Assembly (NCBI GenBank): GCA_022749895.1 | Contig: JAKIWS010000012.1 | Span: 1-42,931 of the forward strand | Origin: Thermoplasmata archaeon | Lineage (GTDB): Archaea > Thermoplasmatota > Thermoplasmata > Lutacidiplasmatales > UBA184 | DNA: 42,931 nt | Direction: 5' to 3' | Shown: one piece after another, positions 1,625 to 14,268 of the stretch | Position numbering within the stretch: position 1 is the first letter of the stretch | Layout: every line of letters begins with the position of its first letter | Translations under genes and position numbers: made by a program | Notes under the pieces: model-generated | The model's database searches: none | What the model saw: the letters and a program-made list of their open reading frames with translations, nothing else | What the model was told of the DNA's origin: nothing

Positions 1625-2281
1625 GTGGAACCGACCGCGTGGCCGGGCGTCTTCCGGTTGGGCCGCGACCTGTTCACCGTGAACGGCGCGCCCGGCCACC
1701 GCGTCTACGGCGAAGAGCTCCGCACCGAGCGGTCGACGGAGTACCGGAAATGGGACCCGTTCCGGTCGAAGCTCGCCGCCCTCCTCGTCAAGTCCCCGCG
1801 CCAGCTCGACCTCGCACCGACCGCCCGGCTCCTCTACCTCGGAGGCGCGCACGGGACGACCGCGAGCCATCTCGCGGACCTCAACCCGGACGGCCGGCTG
1901 TTCGTCGTGGAGAAGAGCCCGACCGCGTTCCCGACCCTGCTCGAGGTCGCGCGCACGCGCGACAACCTCCTTCCGATCCTGGCCGACGCGCAGCTCCCCG
2001 AACGGTACGCGGCGGACGTCGGTCCGGTCGGGTTCGTGTACCAGGACATCGCGCAGCGGGCGCAGGCGCGGATCTTCCTCGAGAACTCCTCCGCGCTCCT
2101 CACGCCCGGCGGTCGGGGGATCCTGATGCTCAAGGTCCGCTCCGTCTCCCAGTCGACGCCCGCGCGTCGCGTGCTCAACGACGCCTGTCGGGAACTCGAG
2201 GCCGGGGGACTGCGGGTCCTCGAAACCGTCGATCTCGCCCCGTTCGCGCGCGAACACCACGCCGTGATCCTGCGCGGCTGA
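1625..2281 (+). CDS. flpA: Fibrillarin-like rRNA/tRNA 2'-O-methyltransferase
   Basis: 218 residues, normal for archaeal fibrillarin. FlpA is the SAM-dependent methyltransferase of box C/D sRNPs that methylates rRNA and tRNA at guide-specified positions. The SAM-binding loop is YLGGAHGTT (71-79), followed by VVEKS (94-98), the LLPILADAQLPERY block (115-128), VYQDIAQRAQ (138-147) and MLKVRS (168-173), all in family order. The SAM loop is slightly divergent, with Gly-Ala-His where Ala-Ala-Ser is common. Start is GTG, 9 nt after ridA. The partner scaffold Nop5, often adjacent in other archaea, is absent from the window. Confidence 0.92.
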   Translation: MEPTAWPGVFRLGRDLFTVNGAPGHRVYGEELRTERSTEYRKWDPFRSKLAALLVKSPRQLDLAPTARLLYLGGAHGTTASHLADLNPDGRLFVVEKSPTAFPTLLEVARTRDNLLPILADAQLPERYAADVGPVGFVYQDIAQRAQARIFLENSSALLTPGGRGILMLKVRSVSQSTPARRVLNDACRELEAGGLRVLETVDLAPFAREHHAVILRG

Positions 2282-2348: not shown

Positions 2349-4616
2349 GTGGTGGCCGTGCGGACCTGCTCGACCCGAAGCGCCCGACCGTCGCGAACGA
2401 CCCCGTGGCTGATCGTCCTCGTGGTCGCCGCCGTCGGGGGGGCCGGTCTCGTCCTCCTCTCCTCGTCGCCCACGCGGCCCCCGGCATCGCTCGCGCGGGC
2501 CGCCTCGGTGTCGGGAACGACGCTCGATCCCACGCTACCGATCTCCCCGGGCACCTGGACGATGGCCGCCGGCACGCACGCCGTCTTCTCGGCGACCTTG
2601 GGCAACCTGCCGTCCGGCTGTGCGATCGTCGCACTCGAGGTCACCTGGAGCTTGCCGGGTATCGCGAGCCAAGACGGGTTCCTCAACTCCAGTAGCGGCC
2701 TCCAGGTCGAGCTCCTCACCTTCGCGGGGGCCGGAGGTCCGGCCTCCGTGGCCGCGACCGGCACCGGCGAGGTCGCCTGCAACGGCCAGCTCTACGGGGT
2801 CGGCCCCAGCGGAACGGCGGAGGTCACGATCGTCCCGAGCCTCGCCCTCGGGTCGCCGGTGGTCGCGCCGGACCCCGCGACCGTCGGCTCGCTCGTCACG
2901 CTCGAAGAGACGGTGGCGGGAGGAGTGGCCCCCTACGCGATCACCCTGGATTTCGGCGACGGGACGTCGGGTTCAACGTCGCTGGCGGCGCCGGGTCCCC
3001 TCGTCGTCGTCCACCGGTACCTCGAGGGACGGTTCTCCCCCCTCTGGTCGATCGTCGATGGGATCGGCGACGTCGGTCGGGCCGAGCCGATGCAGCCCCT
3101 CGTCGTGACCAACATCCTCGCGGTCGTGATCACCCCCTCGGCCCGTACGGTCGACGTCGGAGTGTCGACGACCTTCATCGCAAACATCACGGGGGGCAGC
3201 CCCCCGTTCGCCGTCAGCTGGACCTTCTCGACCGGCGGATTCGGGCTCGGTCCGAGCTGGACCGTCATCCCGTCGGCGCCCGGGACGATCGACGTCCGCG
3301 CGGTCGTCGTCGACGCGGGCGGGGCGAGCGCGGCGAGCGATGCGACGCTCCGCGTAGCCCCTCCCCTGAGACTCGAGGAATCGACCGTGACGCCGACCGG
3401 GGACGTGGGGCGGTCGATCCCTTTCTTCGTCAACGTGACCGGGGGCGTCGCCCCGTTCACCGTCACCTGGGGGCCTGTGGGCGGCGTCGCCAACCGGAGC
3501 GCGGCGCTGACCGCGGACGGATGGTACGTGGAACCGGCGGTCGCACCGACCGTAGGTACCCTCTGGATGACCGCCTTGGCGGTCGACGCCGACGGGGCGC
3601 GCGTCACCACGACCTCCGCGATCGCCGAGATCTACCCGCCCCCGGGACTCACCCTCGCAACCGGCTCGCTCGTGGTGGAAGCGGGTCATCCTCTGCTGGT
3701 GGGCGGCCTGCTCACGGGCGGGGCGCCCCCGCTCGCCTGGAGCCTCAGCCCGTCGCTCCCGGTCAACACCACGAGCCCCGCCACCGGCACGATGAACGGC
3801 ACGGGGGCGTTCTCGTTCCGGGCGACCCCCGTCACCGGGGGGAACCTCACCATCCTCGGCACGGCGCGCGACGCGGCCGGGGCGATCGCGAGCGCGAATG
3901 TGACGGTCCGCGTCCTCCCCCCGGTCCTGGTCGCGCTGTTGCCCGTCCCGACGTTGTCGGTCGGGAGCGCGGCGACGTTGTCCGCCGACATCGGCGGGGG
4001 TCAGCCACCGTACGCGTACGCCGTCACCGTGAGCGACGGGGAGCGACTTCTCGGCAACCTCTCCGGAGGCGGGCCGGTCGACTTCACCATCGCACCCCGC
4101 GTGACCGGCTACATCGAACTGCACGTCGTCGTGACCGACGTTCTCGGCGGCCGCACCGACGTCGCGCTCACTGGGGTCGTGGCAGCGGGAGGCCCCGCGT
4201 CGACGCCGCCCGGCACGACGCCCCCGACCGGGTCGGCCGCGGCTCCCTCCGTGGGCGCCCCGACGTGGGTCGCCGCGATCCTCGGGGCGGGGGGCGTCGT
4301 GGCCGCGATCCTCCTCCCCCGCCGACGGCGGCGCAAGCGGGGCGGCGAATCGAGCGGGCGCGCCGAGGCGATGCAGTCGGTCCGTCGGTACCTCCAGGAA
4401 TCCGAAGGGCTCGACCGGACCACGCTCTACTTCCTCGCCGAGGACGACGGCATCTCCGAAACGGCGACGGACGACGCGCTCCGCCGGTGGATGCGCTCGG
4501 GCCGCATCCGGACCGGGCCCGGACCGGACGAAGAGGAGCTGTTCACCTGGGGCGGAGCTGCGAGCGGGGTCCCCGACCGACGCCCCGCGGCCGACCGGGA
4601 GGAGTCCGACCCATGA
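2349..4616 (+). CDS. PKD-repeat surface protein with cytoplasmic winged-helix-like tail
   Basis: 755 residues. An N-terminal membrane helix (about 20-39) is followed by about 590 extracytoplasmic residues with at least five PKD/Ig-like modules. The first holds the classic FGDG motif near residue 200, and later ones begin with GG(S/V/A/Q)PP(F/Y/L) turns. A Pro/Thr linker leads to a second membrane helix (about 638-656) ended by a run of arginines, then about 90 cytoplasmic residues with helix-helix-hairpin character (RRYLQESEGLDRTTLYFL ... RWMRSGRIRTG), like a small winged-helix domain. Several NxS/T sequons fit surface glycosylation. It is the first operon gene; its TGA overlaps the next ATG (ATGA). 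Likely an adhesin or cell-recognition subunit that may also signal inward. No database match could be run. Confidence 0.75.
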   Translation: MVAVRTCSTRSARPSRTTPWLIVLVVAAVGGAGLVLLSSSPTRPPASLARAASVSGTTLDPTLPISPGTWTMAAGTHAVFSATLGNLPSGCAIVALEVTWSLPGIASQDGFLNSSSGLQVELLTFAGAGGPASVAATGTGEVACNGQLYGVGPSGTAEVTIVPSLALGSPVVAPDPATVGSLVTLEETVAGGVAPYAITLDFGDGTSGSTSLAAPGPLVVVHRYLEGRFSPLWSIVDGIGDVGRAEPMQPLVVTNILAVVITPSARTVDVGVSTTFIANITGGSPPFAVSWTFSTGGFGLGPSWTVIPSAPGTIDVRAVVVDAGGASAASDATLRVAPPLRLEESTVTPTGDVGRSIPFFVNVTGGVAPFTVTWGPVGGVANRSAALTADGWYVEPAVAPTVGTLWMTALAVDADGARVTTTSAIAEIYPPPGLTLATGSLVVEAGHPLLVGGLLTGGAPPLAWSLSPSLPVNTTSPATGTMNGTGAFSFRATPVTGGNLTILGTARDAAGAIASANVTVRVLPPVLVALLPVPTLSVGSAATLSADIGGGQPPYAYAVTVSDGERLLGNLSGGGPVDFTIAPRVTGYIELHVVVTDVLGGRTDVALTGVVAAGGPASTPPGTTPPTGSAAAPSVGAPTWVAAILGAGGVVAAILLPRRRRRKRGGESSGRAEAMQSVRRYLQESEGLDRTTLYFLAEDDGISETATDDALRRWMRSGRIRTGPGPDEEELFTWGGAASGVPDRRPAADREESDP

Positions 4617-4996
4617 AGCTCGGCGGCGGTCGCGGTTCCGGCGCCTGGATCGCGGTGCCGTTCGTAGTGGCGCTCCTCACCACTCCGTCGCCCGGGGTCC
4701 CGCGGCCGGGGGCCGATGCGGGATCCACTCCGTTCGCCGTCGGGGAGAACGGCACCGCGGTCGGCAACTTCTCCGCCGCGATCGGCCGGCTCGTCACGTT
4801 GGTCGGAGCAGCGGGCGGCGGCCTCCTCGCGCTCGTGTGGACGCGCGTCGCCCTGAGTTGGTTCTCCAACGACCTCTCGAAGAAGGTGCAGGCCAAGGAC
4901 CGGGCGCGGGACGCGCTCATCGGAACGTTGCTGTTCGTCGCCGCCCTGAGCGGTCTCCTCTGGGCGCTGGCGCGGTGGGTCGTCGGCGGCGGCTGA
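4613..4996 (+). CDS. VirB2/TrbC-like pilin subunit (two-helix)
   Basis: 127 residues with the architecture of conjugative-pilus subunits. There is a signal-peptide-like N-terminus (helix about 11-25, small residues near 35), a short mature head, a first helix (about 57-80, rich in Gly/Ala/Leu), a short positive loop (DLSKKVQAKDRARD, about 88-101), a second helix (about 102-122) and almost no tail. VirB2 pilins and the archaeal CedA1/TedC proteins are built this way. It overlaps the upstream PKD gene by 4 nt and lies 17 nt before the VirB6-like gene, as expected for an operon encoding a pilus plus channel. Sequence alone does not prove filament formation; a small accessory membrane protein is the alternative. 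Confidence 0.68.
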   Translation: MKLGGGRGSGAWIAVPFVVALLTTPSPGVPRPGADAGSTPFAVGENGTAVGNFSAAIGRLVTLVGAAGGGLLALVWTRVALSWFSNDLSKKVQAKDRARDALIGTLLFVAALSGLLWALARWVVGGG

Positions 4997-5013
4997 ACCG
5001 CGCGGAGCGCTCC

Positions 5014-6159
5014 GTGACCGACCTCAACCAGGTGATCCAGACGCTCCTCTTCGCCATCTTCGCCGGCCTCACCGCCGTGCTCGCGGCGATCATCGGACCG
5101 ACGTACGACAACCTCCTCGTCCCCGAGCTCGCCCCCTCGGCACTGTACCCGTCGTTTCCCGCGTCGGGGGGCGGCGCCGGCTCGTTCCTCGCCCGCGCGG
5201 GAGATTTCAGCGGCTTCCTGGTCGTCCACCTCGTCGATCCCGCGCTCGGCCTCGTCGCCGTCGGGGTCGGGGTGCTGTACCTCGCCCGCGCGACCTCCGC
5301 GCGGCTCACCGACCGCACCCAGGCGATGTTGCCCCGGCTCGTCGTCGCGGCGCTCCTCGCGAACTTCACGCTCCCGGTGGCGGGCGCGATCTTCGCGATC
5401 GCGGGGGCGACGTACCCGGTCATCGAAGGCTACGACCACGGATCGTGGCAGCATTGGGTCAACCTCGCCGGGTTCGGTGCGTTCTCCTTCTCCTGGGACA
5501 ACGGCGTCCTCGCCTTCGTCGTCTCGTTCCTCCTATTCTCCCTCGTTCTGCTTCTCACCGCCGCGGTCGCGCTGCGCGACGCCATGCTCGCCGTGCTCGT
5601 CGTCCTCCTCCCCGTGGCGACGCTCCTCTGGCCGCTCCCGACGTTCGCGCCGCTCGCGCGCCGTGCGTGGCTGCTGTTCGTCGAGCTCGCGTTCCTCCCG
5701 TGCGTCGTCGTCGTCCCGCTCGAACTCGCCGTTGGCGCTCCGAACATCCTCCTGCTCCTCGGCTACCTCACGGTCGCCGTCTCCGCGCCCTCCCTGATCA
5801 GCCTCGCCGGGGCGCCGCTCCGCGAGGCCGGATTTCCGAGCGGGGGCGCCGGGCTCGTCGGGGGCCTCCAGCGGGGCCTCCTCCTCGGCTCCTCCGGGAG
5901 CGGAGGGTACCTGCGGCCGCTCGCGGCCGGCGGTCGCGCGGGGCGGGCCGGTCCCATCGCGGGGTCGCTTGCCCGAACGGCGACGGCGATCACGCTACCG
6001 GCCTCGATCCCGGCGCTCAGTGCCGAAGCGATCGGATGGGGGGCCCACCAACTGATCCACCACCTCCCGAAGGCGATCCGAGCGGCGCGAGGCCGTGACC
6101 GGTTCCCACCGGTGAGGGCCGCGAACGGCCTCGCGGTGAGCGGGGCGGGCGAACCGTGA
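5014..6159 (+). CDS. VirB6/CedA-like polytopic membrane channel protein
   Basis: 381 residues with about seven predicted membrane helices (roughly 7-28, 67-91, 105-128, 163-187, 190-208, 218-238, 242-262) and a basic, Gly-rich cytoplasmic C-terminal 100 residues. VirB6/TrbL proteins form the inner-membrane core of type IV secretion channels, and CedA and TedA are the archaeal DNA-import counterparts. Assignment rests on topology and on its place between a VirB2-like pilin and PrgI/VirB4-like genes, because this family is poorly conserved in sequence. The start is GTG at 5014, the best in-frame choice after the pilin stop. Its TGA overlaps the next GTG (GTGA). Confidence 0.65.
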   Translation: MTDLNQVIQTLLFAIFAGLTAVLAAIIGPTYDNLLVPELAPSALYPSFPASGGGAGSFLARAGDFSGFLVVHLVDPALGLVAVGVGVLYLARATSARLTDRTQAMLPRLVVAALLANFTLPVAGAIFAIAGATYPVIEGYDHGSWQHWVNLAGFGAFSFSWDNGVLAFVVSFLLFSLVLLLTAAVALRDAMLAVLVVLLPVATLLWPLPTFAPLARRAWLLFVELAFLPCVVVVPLELAVGAPNILLLLGYLTVAVSAPSLISLAGAPLREAGFPSGGAGLVGGLQRGLLLGSSGSGGYLRPLAAGGRAGRAGPIAGSLARTATAITLPASIPALSAEAIGWGAHQLIHHLPKAIRAARGRDRFPPVRAANGLAVSGAGEP

Positions 6160-6935
6160 GCGGGCCGGACGGTCCCCCCTTGCTCCGTCTGAGCGCGGCG
6201 ATTCCCCGATCGCCCTCGCTCGGGCCGTTCGCGTCGGCCCGGGACGCGCTCAAGTTCCTCGCCTACGCCGTCGTCGGCGCGGTCGTGGCCGGGTTCGTGA
6301 GCCCGTGGGCGTGGCTCCCGTTCCTGGCCGTCGGGTTCGCGGTCGGGGCCCGACGGTCCGACGGGGCCGGATTCGACCGTCGCGTCGCCGACTTCCTGGG
6401 CTGGGCGATCCGGTGTCGGGGTCGGGCGGGCGGATCGACGGCGCGTTCCCGGCGCCCGGTGCGCGAAGGGCGGGCCGTCGCGGAGGTCGGCGCGGGGACG
6501 GCGGTCGCGATCCTCCGCAGCGAAGGGATCCCGGTCGCGTTCCTACCCCCGACGAACGCGCGCGACCTGTTCGCGGAGTACTGTCGCCTCCTCGGGAGTC
6601 TCGACGGGGGCGTGGCGCTCCTCGTCCGGGGTCGACCCCTCGCCACGCGCACGCTCCTCCCGCGGACCGGGCCCGGAGCGCCGGAGGAGGTCGCGGCGCG
6701 CCGCGGCTACGCGGAGATGCTCGGGCTGCTCGGTCGCCACCGGCGGCGGCGGGAGGTGTTGATCGCTCTCGGAGGACCGACCGGCTCGGCCGCCGCGTTG
6801 AGCCAGATCGAACGGCGGACCGGCGACCTGCAAGATCGCCTCGGGACCCTGGGCATCGTCAGCGAGCGGCTCCGAGGGCCGTCCCTCGCCGAGGGGCTGG
6901 TCGCGTTCGGATGGCCCGCGGGGGGGTCGACGTGA
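6156..6935 (+). CDS. PrgI/VirB3-like protein with VirB4-N-terminal-like domain
   Basis: 259 residues in two parts. Residues 1-90 have a polar N-terminus, two adjacent membrane helices (31-49 and 50-66) and a short amphipathic segment ending in basic residues, the layout of PrgI/VirB3 subunits. Residues 105-259 are soluble, opening with a strand pair (VAILRSEGIPVAFLPP), then helix and strand (GVALLVRGRPL), then long Arg-rich helices. This resembles the substrate-side N-terminal domain of VirB4/TraC ATPases. VirB3-VirB4 fusions are known; here the split may fall differently, with the VirB4-N part on the PrgI protein. Overlaps both neighbours by 4 nt. The domain assignment is by pattern and context. 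Confidence 0.6.
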   Translation: MSGPDGPPLLRLSAAIPRSPSLGPFASARDALKFLAYAVVGAVVAGFVSPWAWLPFLAVGFAVGARRSDGAGFDRRVADFLGWAIRCRGRAGGSTARSRRPVREGRAVAEVGAGTAVAILRSEGIPVAFLPPTNARDLFAEYCRLLGSLDGGVALLVRGRPLATRTLLPRTGPGAPEEVAARRGYAEMLGLLGRHRRRREVLIALGGPTGSAAALSQIERRTGDLQDRLGTLGIVSERLRGPSLAEGLVAFGWPAGGST

Positions 6936-7300
6936 GAGGGCGTTCCACGCCGCAGGTCCCCTCCAGCCTCCTCGGGACGATCGCGCTGTACGCCGTCTTG
7001 GCCGGAGGTCTCTCGATAGTAGAACCGTACTTCATCGGGCTCACCGGGACCCTGGCGGCGATCGGCGCGGTCGTATGGGCGGTGCGCCGGCCGGGACGCT
7101 CCGTCGCGGGATCGGCGCCGCCCCAGTGGGGTCGGCGACCGTGGCTGCTCGCGCTCCCGGCGACGGCGGGGGGATGGGTCGTCGCCCTCGGCGCCCAAGG
7201 ACCCTGGGCGCTCGGCCGGGGACCGGCGCTCGCCCTGGCGTGCATCGCTCTGTGGCTGTCGCGTCGATCGGGGACGATGCGCTCCGCGGGTGGGCCATGA
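6932..7300 (+). CDS. Small polytopic membrane protein of the T4SS-like operon
   Basis: 122 residues with about four hydrophobic segments (near 14-32, 34-51, 70-88 and 94-109) joined by short basic loops. No family recognised. The GTG at 6932 overlaps the upstream TGA by 4 nt and the gene ends in an ATGA overlap with the VirB4 gene, so it is translationally coupled on both sides and probably part of the same membrane complex. An in-frame ATG at 6911 is an alternative start adding seven residues. Ced systems also carry small membrane subunits, which makes a channel-accessory role plausible but unproven. Confidence 0.7.
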   Translation: MRGRSTPQVPSSLLGTIALYAVLAGGLSIVEPYFIGLTGTLAAIGAVVWAVRRPGRSVAGSAPPQWGRRPWLLALPATAGGWVVALGAQGPWALGRGPALALACIALWLSRRSGTMRSAGGP

Positions 7301-9009
7301 GCCCCTCGACCGGTGTCCCTCCCGCGTCGGAGGGGTCGTCGTGGATCCGGCGTCGGGGCCGCGTCGACGCGCCGTTGCTGGTCACCGCTCTTCCCTCCGA
7401 GGCCGCGTTCGGGTTCGTCGGCCGCCTGCTCCCCACCTCGAGCGGCGGGGAGCTCCGCCTCCAACTCCACCGGCTCCCGCCCCCCGACGCGATGGAACTG
7501 CTCCACGCGGCCGATCTCGGGGCGTCGACCGAGCTCGAGAGCGGCACGACGGTCCGGGGCGCGCGTCCGGCCCGTCTACGGGTCGAGGCCGCCGCGGCGG
7601 CGGAGCTCGCGGAATCGGTCGCGGCGCGCGTTCAGGACCTCTGGAGGGTCGGGCTCTCGCTGCACGCGGTCGACCGGCGACCGGTCGTCGCCGAGCGACT
7701 GCGCCGCGACCTGGCCCGCCGCGCCGCCGCGCTCGGTCTGCGCACCCGCCCGCCCGAGTTCGACACGGCACGCGTGGTCCGGCCGCCGGAGTTCCCGCCG
7801 GCCGACGGTCGCCCGATGGGGTACTGGCACCTGCTCGCCACGGAGGGCGCGGCCGCGTTCTTCCCGTTCGTCGACGAATCGATCGCCGAGGAAGGGGGGG
7901 TGCTGGTCGGCCTCCTCCTCGACGATGCGGCCCCGGTCGTCGTGAACCGGTGGAGCCACGGCAGCTACTCCTGGGGCGTCTTCGGGACCACCGGCGCGGG
8001 GAAGACGTTCGCCGCGGCGCTGTGGGCGCTTCGGACCCGGTGGATGACCCCGGGGCTCTCGCTCACGTTCATCGATCCGCTCGGGGAGTTCACGCGTCTC
8101 GGTCCGCTCCTTGGCGGGGACGTCGTCACCGTCGGCCCCGAGGAGCGGGGCCGGGTGAACCCGCTCGACCCCGCGACCACGGGGGAGGACCGTCGCGCGA
8201 AGACGGTCCACTTGGTCGCCATGATGCGCGCGCTGTTCCCGAGCTTGACGGACGAGGAGTCGGCGGTGCTCGAGAGCAGCCTGGATGGGCTCTACCAGCG
8301 TGGCCGCGATCGAACTCCGACGTTCCGTGATCTCGCGGAGGCGGTCGCACGAGCTCCCGGCCTGTCGCCGAACCGACTCGCCACGTTCCTCGAGCTGTTC
8401 CGGAGCGGCCCGCTCCGTCACCTCGACGGTCCGACGACGGTCGACCTCACCGCGAACCCGCTCGTGGTGAACCTGGTCGACGCCGAGCCGAGCCACCTCC
8501 CGTTCCACCTGGCGTACTTGCTCGACGCGGTGTACGGACGGCTGCGGTCGACCCCGGGTCCCAAGCTGGTCGTGGTCGACGAAGCCCACCTCCTGACCCG
8601 CCACCCCGCCACGACGGAGTTCCTGGACCGGATCGTGCGGCACGTGCGCCACTTCGAGGCCGGGCTGCTCTTGCTGAGCCAGAACCCGGACGACTTCCTC
8701 ACGAGCAGTACCGGCCGTTCCCTCCTGCGCAATCTCTCGGCAACGGTCCTCCTGCGGCTCCCGGAAGTGTCGTCGGAGACCCGGTCGTTCTTTCAACTCA
8801 CGGAGGTCGAGGCGGAGTGGCTCCCCCGGGCGCGGTTGCCGGCGGAGGCCGGCTACGCCGAGGGGTTGCTCCGCTTCGGGCCGTCGCACCTCCCGATCGC
8901 GGTCGTCGCCTCCACGCCGGAGTTCGACCTGCTCGCCGGGGCCCTGCGGACCCGTCCGCCGGTCCGGGCGAAAGATCCGGCCGCGTCGGCGGTCCCGGAC
9001 ACCCGGTGA
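7297..9009 (+). CDS. VirB4/TraC-type conjugation ATPase
   Basis: 570 residues. Walker A is GTTGAGKT (230-237), Walker B is LVVVDEAH with Asp428-Glu429, and the following LLLLSQNPDDFL helix-strand matches the conserved segment after Walker B in VirB4/TraC/CedB ATPases (HerA-FtsK superfamily). The phrase LTFIDPLGEF after Walker A and the VNPLDP turn also fit this family. VirB4 ATPases power pilus assembly and substrate movement across the inner membrane; CedB and TedB do so for DNA import. The N-terminal 200 residues are shorter than in full VirB4, consistent with part of that domain lying on the upstream PrgI-like protein. HerA is less likely because NurA is absent and the gene sits among membrane subunits. 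Confidence 0.88.
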   Translation: MSPSTGVPPASEGSSWIRRRGRVDAPLLVTALPSEAAFGFVGRLLPTSSGGELRLQLHRLPPPDAMELLHAADLGASTELESGTTVRGARPARLRVEAAAAAELAESVAARVQDLWRVGLSLHAVDRRPVVAERLRRDLARRAAALGLRTRPPEFDTARVVRPPEFPPADGRPMGYWHLLATEGAAAFFPFVDESIAEEGGVLVGLLLDDAAPVVVNRWSHGSYSWGVFGTTGAGKTFAAALWALRTRWMTPGLSLTFIDPLGEFTRLGPLLGGDVVTVGPEERGRVNPLDPATTGEDRRAKTVHLVAMMRALFPSLTDEESAVLESSLDGLYQRGRDRTPTFRDLAEAVARAPGLSPNRLATFLELFRSGPLRHLDGPTTVDLTANPLVVNLVDAEPSHLPFHLAYLLDAVYGRLRSTPGPKLVVVDEAHLLTRHPATTEFLDRIVRHVRHFEAGLLLLSQNPDDFLTSSTGRSLLRNLSATVLLRLPEVSSETRSFFQLTEVEAEWLPRARLPAEAGYAEGLLRFGPSHLPIAVVASTPEFDLLAGALRTRPPVRAKDPAASAVPDTR

Positions 9010-9109: not shown

Positions 9110-9134
9110 TGAGCTGGAACCGGCTTCGCTGGGT

Positions 9135-9692
9135 GTGAGCGCGGAGCCCGCGGCGTCGGCCGACGGTCCCGCGCGCCGGCGCGACTCCTGGAGCCTCAAG
9201 ACCATCGTCGAGGAGGTCGCGGGCCGCCCGATCAGCGAGCTGCAGGACCCCGCGCGCCCGATGCATCCGTACCTGAAAGTGAAGCTCGGCTCGTCCTCGC
9301 CCTCGGCGGCGTACGGTGCCGCGACCCCGGCCCACCTCCCGTCCCCGTCGTTCGACCCGAACGAGCCACCCGATCCGGTGAACCGGGTCTACCCCCCGCT
9401 TGTCGGCGCCACCGGTCGCGCGCTCCACGGGGAGGAGAACGCCCACCATGCGGCGACCCTCGCGAGCGTACATCCGCCGCACGAGGCCTCCGTCCCGGGA
9501 GTGCACCACCATCCGCCGGGGCCCTCCGGACGGCCCGAGCGGATCTACCTGCACTACCTCTTGCTCCACCTGGACCGGCTCACGGATTCCGCGCTGCAGT
9601 ACCTCGGTCACGCGGTGAGCGAGGAACTCGAGCACCGGGAGGCGTCGACGACCGCCGCCGCGTCCCCGTCCACGACCGCGCCCGGGCCCTGA
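9135..9692 (+). CDS. Hypothetical protein, Pro/His-rich with C-terminal helix
   Basis: 185 residues, no family recognised. A short helix (SWSLKTIVEEVAGRPISEL) is followed by about 90 Pro/Ser/Ala/His-rich residues without obvious structure, then a hydrophobic amphipathic helix (IYLHYLLLHLDRLTDSALQYLGHAV) and a Thr/Ala-rich tail. No signal peptide or membrane helix. The GTG start is chosen from the TATA box at 9104. The last 113 nt overlap the convergent methyltransferase gene. It could be an accessory of the preceding secretion-like operon, but nothing beyond position suggests this. Confidence 0.6.
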   Translation: MSAEPAASADGPARRRDSWSLKTIVEEVAGRPISELQDPARPMHPYLKVKLGSSSPSAAYGAATPAHLPSPSFDPNEPPDPVNRVYPPLVGATGRALHGEENAHHAATLASVHPPHEASVPGVHHHPPGPSGRPERIYLHYLLLHLDRLTDSALQYLGHAVSEELEHREASTTAAASPSTTAPGP

Positions 9693-10446
9693 GCCGCTCG
9701 ACGAGCACCGGATCCCGTTCCACCCCCACCGCGCGGCGGCCCAGCTCGGACGCGACCCAGAGCGTCGTGCCGGTGCCGGCGAACGGGTCGAGCACGGTGT
9801 CGCCCACAACGGAGAACATCCGGATCAGCCGCTCGGGGATCGCCGGCGGGAAGGCGGCGGTACGTCGCCCGTCCTTCTCCTGCCGCCGGCCGCGGACGTC
9901 CGACCAGATCTGCGAGAACCAACGGTCCCGTTCGGGCCGCGTGTAGCGGCTCACGGCGCGCCGCGGGTCCCCTGCGGGGAAGGCCCGTCGGTCCCCCTTG
10001 CGGAACAGGAGGACGAACTCGCAGTCGAGGGTGACGTAGGCGTTCGGCGGGGAGAACCCGGAACCGAGGAACGCGTTCGGCTTGTTGGTCGGTTTCTTCC
10101 AGAGCACGTACGGCAGCGAGCGGAAACCGACCCCCTCGCAGGCGTGCGTCACGCGGGCGTGGTTCGACCAGAGTCGGAACTCGCCGTCCAGCGTGCGAAC
10201 GGCGTCGCCGATGTTGATCGCGAGCAGTCCCCCCGGAACGAGCACGCGATGACAGGCCCGCCACGCCTCCGCGAGCACGGCGTGCATCCCGTCGAAGTCG
10301 CGGGCGCCGAGCTCCCGGAACAACCCGTCCCATTGCTCGATCATCGGGTAGGGCGGGCTGGTCACGACGAGGGCAATGCTGGCGTCGGCGACGTCGGGAA
10401 GTTCACGGGCATCCCCCAGGATGATGCGGATGTCGCCCGGTTCCAA
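9580..10446 (-). CDS. DNA methyltransferase, amino-methyl (N4-cytosine/N6-adenine) type
   Basis: 288 residues. The catalytic motif TSPPY (residues 29-33) comes first and the SAM-binding motif DPFAGTGTT (220-228) near the C-terminus, which is the permuted beta-class order. SPPY is common in N4-cytosine enzymes. The recognition sequence cannot be read from the gene. No restriction endonuclease is adjacent, so it may be an orphan enzyme. The start is uncertain: no ATG or GTG precedes the motif in frame, and TTG at 10446 gives an N-terminus of MEPGDIRIILGD that matches the family. A TATA-like element at 10488-10493 is shared with the divergent gene. The C-terminal tail overlaps the convergent gene by 113 nt. 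Confidence 0.88.
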   Translation of the reverse strand: MEPGDIRIILGDARELPDVADASIALVVTSPPYPMIEQWDGLFRELGARDFDGMHAVLAEAWRACHRVLVPGGLLAINIGDAVRTLDGEFRLWSNHARVTHACEGVGFRSLPYVLWKKPTNKPNAFLGSGFSPPNAYVTLDCEFVLLFRKGDRRAFPAGDPRRAVSRYTRPERDRWFSQIWSDVRGRRQEKDGRRTAAFPPAIPERLIRMFSVVGDTVLDPFAGTGTTLWVASELGRRAVGVERDPVLVERLRARARSWTGTRRRSSTPPGARVPRSPRDRGTAARNP

Positions 10447-11948: not shown

Positions 11949-12111
11949 CTCTCTGGGAAGCGGAGGTCGTTCCGTGCTGTGCTCGGTGGGCCCGGGACCT
12001 GCCGGGGCACCGGGGGTTCCCCCCCACCGGGGAGCGGCGGGGTCCAGGTTCTGGCACCGGAGGCCGATGTTGCGTCCTACCCGTTTATGGTCCGGACGGC
12101 GGTTCGGGTCC

Positions 12112-14268
12112 GTGCCGCCGCGGGAGGCGGAAGGTTGTGGGAACGTGCGGGGAGTTGTGGGATCGATCGCGATAGTCGTCGTTCTTCTCGCCGTGGGCGC
12201 TTTCGTGCACCCGGGCTCCGGCGGTCGTGGGCCGGGGTCGCTCGGCCACTCCGGCCCCGCCCCCCGCCTAGGGACATCGGAGCTGCAGAATGCGGCGAAG
12301 TCTCTGTCCAGCGGCGGGGGACCGGCCCGCGGCCTCGCGTGGAGCTGCCAGAGCGGCAGCGGACCCGGGTCCGTCTCGTGCGGTCCGGCGACGACGCCGG
12401 CCCCCCTAGTCGCGACGTCTCCGAACTGGAACCCTCTCCCGACCGCGCCCCCGCACCGGTACTCGACGGAGGGCGCGTACGATCCCCTCGACCGGGAGGT
12501 CGTGATGTTCGGCGGGTGGAACGGCGGGGGGTTCATGGGCGACACCTGGGTGTTCCTGAACGGGGCGTGGAGCCAGCTCCACCCGTCCACCGCGCCGTCG
12601 GCCCGTTCGAGCGCGATGATGACGTGGGACGTCAAGGACCATTACGCCCTCCTGTACGGCGGTGAAGGAACGGGGGGCCTCCTCAGCGATACCTGGACCT
12701 TCGTCCACGGACATTGGACCCACCTTACCCCGGCGACGTCCCCGGGGACGCTCGCGAACGCCGGGATGGCCTACGATTCCAACGACTCGTATGTCGTCCT
12801 ATTCGCCGGGCAGCCGACGGGCTCGACGGTGACGGCCGCGACGTGGACGTACTCCGGAGGCGTCTGGACCCACCCGACCCCGGCCGCGTCGCCGGCGGCG
12901 CGGTCGTACCTCGGGATGGCGTACGACAACCGCGACGGGTGGATCGTCGTCTTCGGAGGCCAAACCGCCACCGGGAGTCCTCTCGGGGACACGTGGAACT
13001 TCTCGAAGGGGCATTGGACCCAGCAGGCGGTTGGGGGCCCCGCTCCCGCGAACCGTAGCGGCCCGGCCCTGGCGAACGACACCTCGGACTCGTCCCTCAT
13101 CCTCTTCGGCGGAGTGTCAACGGGTTCAGGCCGGTTCGCGGATACCTGGTCGTTCGTGCAAGGCGCGTGGACGCAGCTCGGTCCCGCGAGCGCCCCGTCC
13201 GCCCGCGGCGATGCGCTCGCCGTCTTCGACAGCGCGATCGGAAAGGTGTTCCTCTACGGCGGGAATCCGCATGCCGGTCCGATCCTGCAGAACACGTGGA
13301 CCTACCGGGGGGGCGTCTGGAAGAGCGTCCCGCCGATCCACCCCGACGCTCGGCTCGACGTCGCGATGGTCTACGACGAGGCCGACGGCTACGTGGTCCT
13401 GTTCGGAGGCCAAGACTTGGGGGGCGCCCGGGCCGACACGTGGACGTACCTCCACGGACTCTGGAAACCGCTGACGCTGTCGCCCGCGCCGCCGGCGCGT
13501 TCCGGCGCGGCCATGACCTTCGACTCGACCGACGGGTACGTGGTCCTGTTCGGCGGGGGCTGTCCTCCCGGGGTGATCTGCACCATCCTCGGGGACACGT
13601 GGGAGTTCCTTGGGGGACACTGGAGTCAGCTGTTTCCCGCGTACAGCCCGTCGCCCCGAGAATGGGCGTCGATGGCGGACGATCCGAACGACGGGTACGT
13701 CGTGCTGTTCGGCGGGTACTCAGCCTCCGGCGACACGAACGACACGTGGACGTTCGTCGGCGGGGCGTGGACCAACGTATGGGCGAACGGCTGCACGTAC
13801 TGCGGCCAGCCCGCGGCGCGGTTCTCCGCGGGGATGGTCTACGATGCCTACGACGGCTACGTCCTCCTGTTCGGGGGCACGAACGCGACGGGGTCCGTCA
13901 GCTTTCGAAGCTTGTCCGACACCTGGACCTTCCTCGCCGGCAACTGGACGAACGTGACCTTTAGCGCGGGGACGCCCCCACCTCAGACGTCCAATCTCGG
14001 CCTCGCCTACGACGGGTTCGACGGCTACGTACTTCTCAACGGAGGATGGACCTGGAACGGCGGCACGACGTACGCGACGTCGTGGAAGTTCGTGGGCGGC
14101 GCCTGGAGCCAGCTCGCGCCGTCGACCTCGCCCCCGGCGCTCGCCGACTTCAACTTGGCCTACGATGCCGCGGACAACTCCGTGGTCCTGTTCGGGGGCG
14201 TCACCTGTGGGTCTTGCCTCTGGAGCCTTTCCTACACGCCGCTGTCGGGCGCGACGTGGCTCTACTGA
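12112..14268 (+). CDS. Secreted Kelch-like beta-propeller protein, 12 repeats
   Basis: 718 residues from the GTG at 12112, chosen because TTTATG at 12084-12089 lies 25 nt upstream; ATG 12067 and GTG 12145 are alternatives. A hydrophobic signal/anchor segment (about 14-32) precedes a Pro/Ser-rich spacer and twelve repeats of about 50 residues built on DGYVVLFGG ... DTWTF..G.W..L ... A..YD. This is a Kelch/galactose-oxidase-like propeller pattern, enough for two six-bladed propellers. It has several sequons and a few Cys pairs in later repeats, and no C-terminal anchor is seen. Probably an S-layer-associated or secreted binding protein. Galactose-oxidase active-site residues were not identified, so a catalytic role is not claimed. 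Confidence 0.85.
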   Translation: MPPREAEGCGNVRGVVGSIAIVVVLLAVGAFVHPGSGGRGPGSLGHSGPAPRLGTSELQNAAKSLSSGGGPARGLAWSCQSGSGPGSVSCGPATTPAPLVATSPNWNPLPTAPPHRYSTEGAYDPLDREVVMFGGWNGGGFMGDTWVFLNGAWSQLHPSTAPSARSSAMMTWDVKDHYALLYGGEGTGGLLSDTWTFVHGHWTHLTPATSPGTLANAGMAYDSNDSYVVLFAGQPTGSTVTAATWTYSGGVWTHPTPAASPAARSYLGMAYDNRDGWIVVFGGQTATGSPLGDTWNFSKGHWTQQAVGGPAPANRSGPALANDTSDSSLILFGGVSTGSGRFADTWSFVQGAWTQLGPASAPSARGDALAVFDSAIGKVFLYGGNPHAGPILQNTWTYRGGVWKSVPPIHPDARLDVAMVYDEADGYVVLFGGQDLGGARADTWTYLHGLWKPLTLSPAPPARSGAAMTFDSTDGYVVLFGGGCPPGVICTILGDTWEFLGGHWSQLFPAYSPSPREWASMADDPNDGYVVLFGGYSASGDTNDTWTFVGGAWTNVWANGCTYCGQPAARFSAGMVYDAYDGYVLLFGGTNATGSVSFRSLSDTWTFLAGNWTNVTFSAGTPPPQTSNLGLAYDGFDGYVLLNGGWTWNGGTTYATSWKFVGGAWSQLAPSTSPPALADFNLAYDAADNSVVLFGGVTCGSCLWSLSYTPLSGATWLY

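Follow-up and report, generated by a model that had tools for sequence, protein, structure and literature searches.

Six consecutive genes on a 42,931-nucleotide contig of a soil archaeon (Thermoplasmatota, Lutacidiplasmatales; GenBank assembly GCA_022749895.1, contig JAKIWS010000012.1; this whole stretch of DNA is called the window below) appear to encode a chromosomal, minimal VirB-type type IV secretion system (T4SS) without a recognised relaxase, whose likeliest cargo is DNA passed between kin cells, a reading to which we assign a probability of about 60%. In order, they are predicted to specify a surface protein (gene 1), a VirB2-like pilin (gene 2), a VirB6-type channel protein (gene 3), a VirB3/PrgI-like protein (gene 4), a small membrane protein (gene 5) and a VirB4 ATPase (gene 6). 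We read the operon as most plausibly encoding a domesticated machine for exchanging DNA on cell contact, one analogous to Ted of the Thermoproteales, and we claim it as neither Ted nor Ced of the Sulfolobales. Sequence comparison gives strong evidence of family membership for VirB4 and the pilin; for VirB6 and gene 4 the evidence comes by way of their relatives. In the literature examined, T4SS-derived chromosomal DNA exchange is described for just two crenarchaeal groups, Ced and Ted (PMC9905601; here as elsewhere, published work is cited from excerpts), and the Thermoplasmata machine had been recorded only as scattered components.

Components of the operon

On its sequence matches, gene 6 is a classical VirB4. 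The protein alone matched the structure 4ag5, which we take to be a Thermoanaerobacter-type VirB4, at 9.7e-14, and a seven-member profile matched it at 8.7e-41, far ahead of the next chains in the PDB, the restriction protein DptH (1.1e-9), a helicase (1.4e-8) and a HerA-domain protein (5.5e-8). NCBIfam returned the CD1110-family VirB4 (6e-35), VirB4_CagE (2.7e-16) and CedD (1.4e-7); CedB gave no NCBIfam match, and no member of the CedB family was found in the host genome. The Walker A (residues 230-237) and DEAH (428-431) motifs are conserved. HerA/FtsK identity, part of an outcome that would have undone the initial annotation of a VirB4/TraC-type ATPase, is rejected on the lead of VirB4 in both databases. 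The Ced-like logic that the annotation had proposed is not supported for the ATPase, which has no CedB match and only the modest match to CedD.

A tree of 38 VirB4 rows united those of Lutacidiplasmatales in one clade (100/100). It placed the archaeal rows on one side (89/95, not starred), with four VirB4s from haloarchaeal plasmids among them, and does not resolve how the families are related. The rows comprise no Ced or Ted sequences and include 12 of at least 21 non-Thermoplasmata loci from a pattern scan, 6 of 12 listed plasmid hits and pCF10, with three Thermoplasma-family rows trimmed at the N-terminus. The contig scan used one degenerate pattern and had one named relative of the family among the matches listed. 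Among those listed, an ATPase 56% identical to the window's lies at locus L051 of the metagenome-assembled genome (MAG) AcS5-116, a genome tabulated in a Lutacidiplasmatales paper (PMC9287336); a search of the paper's accessible text for 'type IV', 'secretion' and 'pili' returned none of them. The VirB4 genes of the haloarchaeal plasmids L179 and L180 lie in clusters whose genes are unnamed. Two genes past VirB4, L179 encodes a PH-domain protein, as the Thermoplasmata locus L046 also seems to.

The two-helix VirB2-like pilin of the initial annotation was borne out. Nine of 12 pilin family segments matched PF18895 T4SS_pilin (best 2.6e-9) and two matched TrbC/VirB2 (1.3e-6). The window's own segment gave a weak match below the cut-off (0.0051), and the whole protein had no Pfam match. 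It has a signal-like N-terminus and two hydrophobic helices with a basic loop between them. In the Aciduliprofundum-type locus L045, five VirB2-like pilin genes stand in a row, flanked by the genes for the surface protein and VirB6, and pilins with large N-terminal ectodomains follow the pilin gene in L045 (four) and L117 (one).

We assign gene 3 to the VirB6/TrbL type via its relatives, two of seven family members matching PF04610 TrbL/VirB6 (best 6.6e-4), and via its place between the pilin and the VirB3/VirB4 genes. The window protein had no TrbL/VirB6 match in Pfam, and the VirB6 profile had no match in the PDB. Helices were counted with a simple hydropathy threshold, which gave about six for the VirB6-like protein, two for the pilin, one for the PrgI-like protein and two for the small protein; the VirB6 identity proposed in the annotation is supported through relatives, and its count of seven helices is not firm.

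Gene 4, which has an N-terminal hydrophobic hairpin and lies between the VirB6 and VirB4 genes, appears to combine a hairpin of the VirB3/PrgI type with part of the N-terminal domain of VirB4, as the annotation had suggested. In L045, residues 102-244 of the gene 4 orthologue match VirB4_plasma 126-273 (4.3e-5) and, weakly, CD1110 20-164 (0.01), and the VirB4 gene spans CD1110 182-734 (6.7e-62). Because these matches cover complementary parts of CD1110, the two genes seem to share one VirB4. Such a VirB4 match was found in one of nine gene 4 family members, the window protein not among them. In the Thermoplasma family, four of six loci read (L109, L110, L113 and L128; 703, 703, 536 and 669 amino acids) carry the hydrophobic N-terminus and the ATPase in one fused protein, and L111 and L112 have two separate genes. 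Comparison of the gene 4 family with three PrgI-type sequences (two annotated as PrgI and a Priestia sequence picked by size and place) gave a probability of 24.7, against less than 1 for two controls. Gene 4 matched VirB3 weakly in the PDB (E 0.6) and nothing in Pfam; its soluble domain had no significant match among 12 bacterial VirB4s (E 0.05-0.19, with one of five shuffles reaching 0.066). An hhalign comparison of alignments A3 and A8 (41.7%, soluble region only) led nowhere. A structure model from a two-sequence alignment displays a helical hairpin and then an alternating strand-helix domain; its mean predicted local distance difference test score (pLDDT) is 38.0, and we do not count it as evidence.

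In gene 1, an N-terminal hydrophobic segment precedes a PKD/Ig-like ectodomain, and a C-terminal membrane segment (about residues 635-658) is followed by a cytoplasmic tail. Its PKD match in Pfam (9e-5) scores 22.8 bits against a cut-off of 23.5. The tail reads like a winged helix from its pattern by eye, with no profile match. It could be aligned across ten Lutacidiplasmatales and two Aciduliprofundum-family proteins; the match to Ig-domain surface proteins, which occupy the corresponding place in L045 and L117, is weak (12-15% identity to the window). Among the 14 loci of the genus in which the interval from fibrillarin to VirB4 is covered (the window, L031, L033-L037, L039-L041, L043, L044, L051 and L127), the ectodomain is present in 11; L039 and L044 have a tail-only protein of 98 or 113 amino acids, and L035 has neither. 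The tail is the portion retained in the relatives where the ectodomain is lost. A PKD query matched in all eight loci from other genera of the window's family. The PKD adhesin proposed for the operon stands as a match just under the cut-off, and it is variable among the loci.

Gene 5, annotated as a small membrane protein, has two helices by the threshold and perhaps four. It evolves fast and has no Pfam match, and tblastn recovered it at only 4 of the 15 loci of the genus; proteins resembling it in size and place occur in L045 and L117.

All six open frames and four exact 4-nucleotide overlaps were found just as the initial annotation had them (ATGA at 4613, GTGA at 6156, GTGA at 6932 and ATGA at 7297). 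The pilin and VirB6 genes are separated by a 17-nucleotide gap if gene 3 begins at GTG 5014, its most likely start. The arrangement is more than chance, since the gene order recurs in relatives and all six genes are under apparent purifying selection.

Table 1. Coordinates in the window of the operon genes and their upstream neighbour, with the basis for each assignment.
Feature	Position	Strand	Basis
Gene 1, surface protein	2349..4616	+	Pfam PKD below cut-off; hydropathy; tail alignment
Gene 2, VirB2-like pilin	4613..4996	+	T4SS_pilin/VirB2 matches of family segments
Gene 3, VirB6/TrbL-like polytopic membrane protein	5014..6159	+	TrbL/VirB6 matches of relatives; place in operon
Gene 4, VirB3/PrgI-like hairpin with putative part of VirB4 N-terminal domain	6156..6935	+	Orthologue match in L045
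Gene 5, small membrane protein	6932..7300	+	Hydropathy threshold; place
Gene 6, VirB4 ATPase	7297..9009	+	NCBIfam CD1110; PDB 4ag5; motifs; tree
Fibrillarin-like paralogue, immediate upstream neighbour	1625..2281	+	Pfam Fibrillarin 3.4e-57

Distribution and inheritance in the Thermoplasmata

The host genome (83% complete, 2.02 Mb; the window is its contig 11) belongs to the Thermoplasmatota, in line with the euryarchaeal host first proposed. 'Genus' and 'family' below follow the taxon groupings of the genome collection used. A tblastn search recovered the full set of pilin, VirB6, gene 4 and VirB4 at 14 of the 15 loci of the genus; the fifteenth (L050) is cut by a contig end. The membrane genes accompany the ATPase in all 14 sufficiently covered loci, so that an ATPase without them, which would have refuted the initial annotation, was not encountered there. 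The same gene order recurs in related genomes, including L045, where gene 5 is recognised by place and size alone. In 20 further loci of the class, a pilin match lies next to VirB6 or VirB4 in 19, the exception being L116. The VirB6 profile was run against 300 genomes of the class, each with a completeness of 80% or more, and found relatives in 121, spread over 32 of 89 genera and six families; the VirB4 profile matched in 173, many of these matches being weak and HerA-like. The initial annotation had seen a new branch of the family in one genome. With relatives in six families, and with pieces noted before in the published excerpts (PMC5155288, PMC3158045, PMC10354927), that claim does not hold.

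Within the genus the operon is chromosomal, near-universal and apparently inherited vertically. VirB6 was found in 41 of 47 genomes, compared with 41.9 expected if it were universal and hidden by incompleteness alone. Across 15 genomes, VirB4 and VirB6 distances were correlated (r 0.89, p 0.0005), and both tracked a chromosomal gene that is unlinked to them (Mantel r 0.81 and 0.76, respectively, p 0.0005 each), a pattern unlike the patchy presence of a mobile element. Ratios of nonsynonymous to synonymous substitution rates (dN/dS) against the nearest relative, G025, were 0.40, 0.26, 0.24, 0.27, 0.47 and 0.22 for genes 1 to 6, and all six look to be under purifying selection.

Five MAGs of the genus (G001, G013, G163, G183 and G251) lack the operon. 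True loss was considered and rejected: a tree of canonical fibrillarin scatters these genomes (5 changes), and in it G001 is a near twin of operon-bearing G002, which makes assembly gaps the best explanation. Neither the fibrillarin paralogue that flanks the operon nor the Hps-RraA gene downstream of it was found in these five, in a search that had no internal positive control.

Known systems, cargo and rival explanations

Ced is a chromosomal VirB2/VirB4/VirB6-type system without a relaxase that imports DNA (PMC9905601, PMC11868833), and Ted is inferred to do so (PMC9905601). With Ted, the Thermoplasmata operon shares its chromosomal setting, a VirB2/VirB6/VirB4-type trio, a signal-peptide pilin and the lack of a recognised relaxase (PMC9905601), and the kind of VirB4 seems to agree. 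It adds the VirB3/PrgI-like protein with its putative VirB4 part, the small membrane protein and the surface protein with its winged-helix-like tail, whereas the ParA, Rad50 and HerA neighbours described as common, though not universal, around Ted (PMC9905601) are not among the five flanking genes scanned. TedC was not among the PDB matches of the pilin profile, the presence of a TedC chain in the PDB being unchecked. Ced likewise has VirB2/VirB6/VirB4-like parts, and in both systems the VirB4 N-terminal domain appears spread over two proteins, CedB/CedD there and genes 4/6 here (PMC9905601, PMC11868833); the ATPase differs, being a classical VirB4 rather than a CedB. VirB3 homologues are stated to be absent in archaea in one source (PMC11868833) and reported in thaumarchaeal integrative conjugative elements (ICEs) in another (PMC6563490).

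The T4SSs of Patescibacteria are also chromosomal and mostly relaxase-less, combining VirB4, PrgI/VirB3, VirB6 and VirB2-like pilins, with pilin arrays; the excerpts report neither VirB3-VirB4 fusions nor a PrgB-like adhesin (PMC12102498), whereas fusion-like proteins occur in the Thermoplasma-family relatives here. Monoderm MPF_FATA systems such as pCF10 share the gene order channel-PrgI-VirB4. The curated VirB4 family closest to gene 6, CD1110, is also the one to which the VirB4 of pCF10 is annotated. The operon differs from these systems in its VirB2-like pilin and apparently divided VirB4 N-domain, and no relaxase, VirB1- or VirB8-type gene was recognised in it with Pfam. T4SS components have been named in Cuniculiplasma (CSP5_1185-1189) and E-plasma (PMC5155288, PMC10354927). 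By their description, VirB4 plus membrane proteins, these probably belong to the same Thermoplasmata family; the excerpts name components only, with no tie to Ced or Ted and no VirB2 or VirB3. We found no description of a Thermoplasmata-wide T4SS, or of its link to Ced or Ted, in the open-access literature examined.

The initial annotation reported neither a relaxase nor a VirD4 coupling protein. PF03432, the sole relaxase family searched, was found in none of 12 genomes, including the Aciduliprofundum-type G051. VirD4 is indeed missing from the surroundings of the operon, but a candidate lies elsewhere in the genome and genus. In L114 and L115, a second ATPase follows VirB4 directly, and as a query this type matched in 21 of 22 genomes, many of the matches being weak. 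Its Lutacidiplasmatales homologue is unlinked to the operon (L140, 7500-9517, on contig 40 of the host genome, near nop5-fibrillarin), a large candidate VirD4/TrwB-like ATPase gene with homologues throughout the family. Four of six second ATPases scanned (L132, L133, L135 and L137) pass the Pfam cut-off for the TrwB/VirD4 coupling domain, and that of L132 matches SXT TraD at 1.6e-12. Those of L135 and L136 match generic P-loop families equally well or better; for L135, ABC-transporter P-loops lead in NCBIfam (7.6e-7, with TraD at 0.0015). The VirD4 label is therefore uncertain. The ATPase is strong in operon-less G001, G251 and G163 and weaker, at paralogue level, in G013 and G183. With the gene persisting in three of the five, co-loss was rejected as proof of a coupling partnership, which is possible rather than demonstrated.

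In the mechanism that we envisage, VirB4 would lie beneath the membrane, joined to the VirB6 channel by gene 4, which would supply the opening stretch that the VirB4 N-terminal domain itself lacks. VirB4 would extract VirB2-like pilins and polymerise them, forming a short filament or a conduit. A partner cell or surface would probably be sensed or held by the surface protein, whose winged-helix-like tail would report inside. The likeliest cargo would be chromosomal DNA, single-stranded and passed from one kin cell to another. We infer the formation of a pilus, the nature of the cargo as DNA, its direction and the role of the surface protein. DNA exchange is the likeliest function by analogy with Ced and Ted; the 'import' of the initial annotation followed only from the absence of export genes.

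The main rival is a protein-secreting or contact-dependent T4SS that delivers protein to neighbours, which we consider unlikely. It would accommodate the lack of PF03432, the variable ectodomain of the surface protein, the fast-evolving small membrane protein and the large ectodomains on relatives' pilins, and the Patescibacteria systems are regarded as having non-conjugative functions (PMC12102498). Yet none of the five neighbouring genes scanned was recognised by Pfam as encoding an effector, a toxin or an immunity protein. A machine that only builds pili or adhesins, VirB4 assembling VirB2 filaments for attachment with no cargo, is quite improbable: pilins and the surface protein do dominate the locus, with tandem ectodomain pilins in L045 and L117, but a VirB6-type gene was present wherever a VirB4 locus was read one gene at a time and was not cut short. 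A remnant or local copy of an ICE that still transfers itself strikes us as very improbable, and for the window it is already unlikely. A. boonei has been scored as carrying an ICE (PMC3158045), a phage-integrase-family gene (L045, 1251-1844, minus strand; 5.5e-8) lies about 7 kb from the Aciduliprofundum-type T4SS, candidate VirD4-like ATPases exist, and the VirB4 tree puts those of haloarchaeal plasmids on its archaeal side. Against this, the genus operon is near-universal, its VirB4 tracks an unlinked chromosomal gene and its flanks are stable ordinary genes, common also to three of eight loci of other genera; the lack of PF03432, G051 included, sits uneasily with the published A. boonei call.

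Several observations weigh against a DNA-exchange T4SS. The VirB6 and VirB3 assignments rest on relatives and not on the window proteins, the VirB6-family alignment did not match pCF10 PrgH, and the gene 3 model, also from a two-sequence alignment, is as poor (pLDDT 37.6) as that of gene 4. (In the pCF10 locus L139, PrgH is presumably the channel and PrgJ the VirB4.) No match to CedA or CedA1 turned up in NCBIfam or the PDB, the presence of such models or chains there being unchecked. The relaxase search was confined to one family, and a candidate VirD4-like ATPase in the genome leaves room for export or protein secretion. L116 is the VirB6 locus of G121, whose VirB4 lies on another contig; three drafts from the window's family (G070, G195 and G256) have a strong VirB4 without a VirB6 match, and 13 Thermoplasma-family genomes have VirB4 matches (4e-8 to 3e-25) without one. 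Drafts and low sensitivity may lie behind these genomes, VirB6 matches in the Thermoplasma family themselves going down to 3.6e-4.

A broader version of the DNA-exchange reading is tentative, and we would not favour it as it stands. Thermoplasmata may have inherited an ancient domesticated T4SS that now serves much of the class as a standing DNA-exchange organ. Its VirB4 would have been cut in two, with the first part placed on VirB3 and rejoined in the Thermoplasma family; its pilins may bear entire ectodomains for sensing or adhesion; and a surface receptor, through its DNA-binding-like tail, would couple cell contact directly to gene expression. If a related machine is conserved in Thermoplasmata, chromosomal DNA exchange of this kind would extend to another major archaeal lineage, one with cultivated members. 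The divided VirB4, the fusions and the ectodomain pilins would be natural experiments on the assembly of T4SS energy centres and filaments.

Neighbouring genes

Five flanking genes were scanned with Pfam and read as RidA-like, fibrillarin, unknown, methylase and Hps-RraA. Fibrillarin was rejected as a part of the machine, there being no flpA match beside the operon in five of eight loci of other genera. Several genus members have two fibrillarins: the copy next to the operon, and a second, diverged one (about 40% identical) that adjoins nop5. Only the latter was seen in the five operon-less MAGs. Downstream on the minus strand lie a small protein without a Pfam match (9129-9692) and an N6/N4 DNA methylase (9580-10446; 3.7e-36), which adjoin the operon also in genus relatives and some sister genera. 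Farther on, at 11974-14268, is a large repeat protein in which Kelch-like 'YVVLFGG' repeats can be seen by eye.

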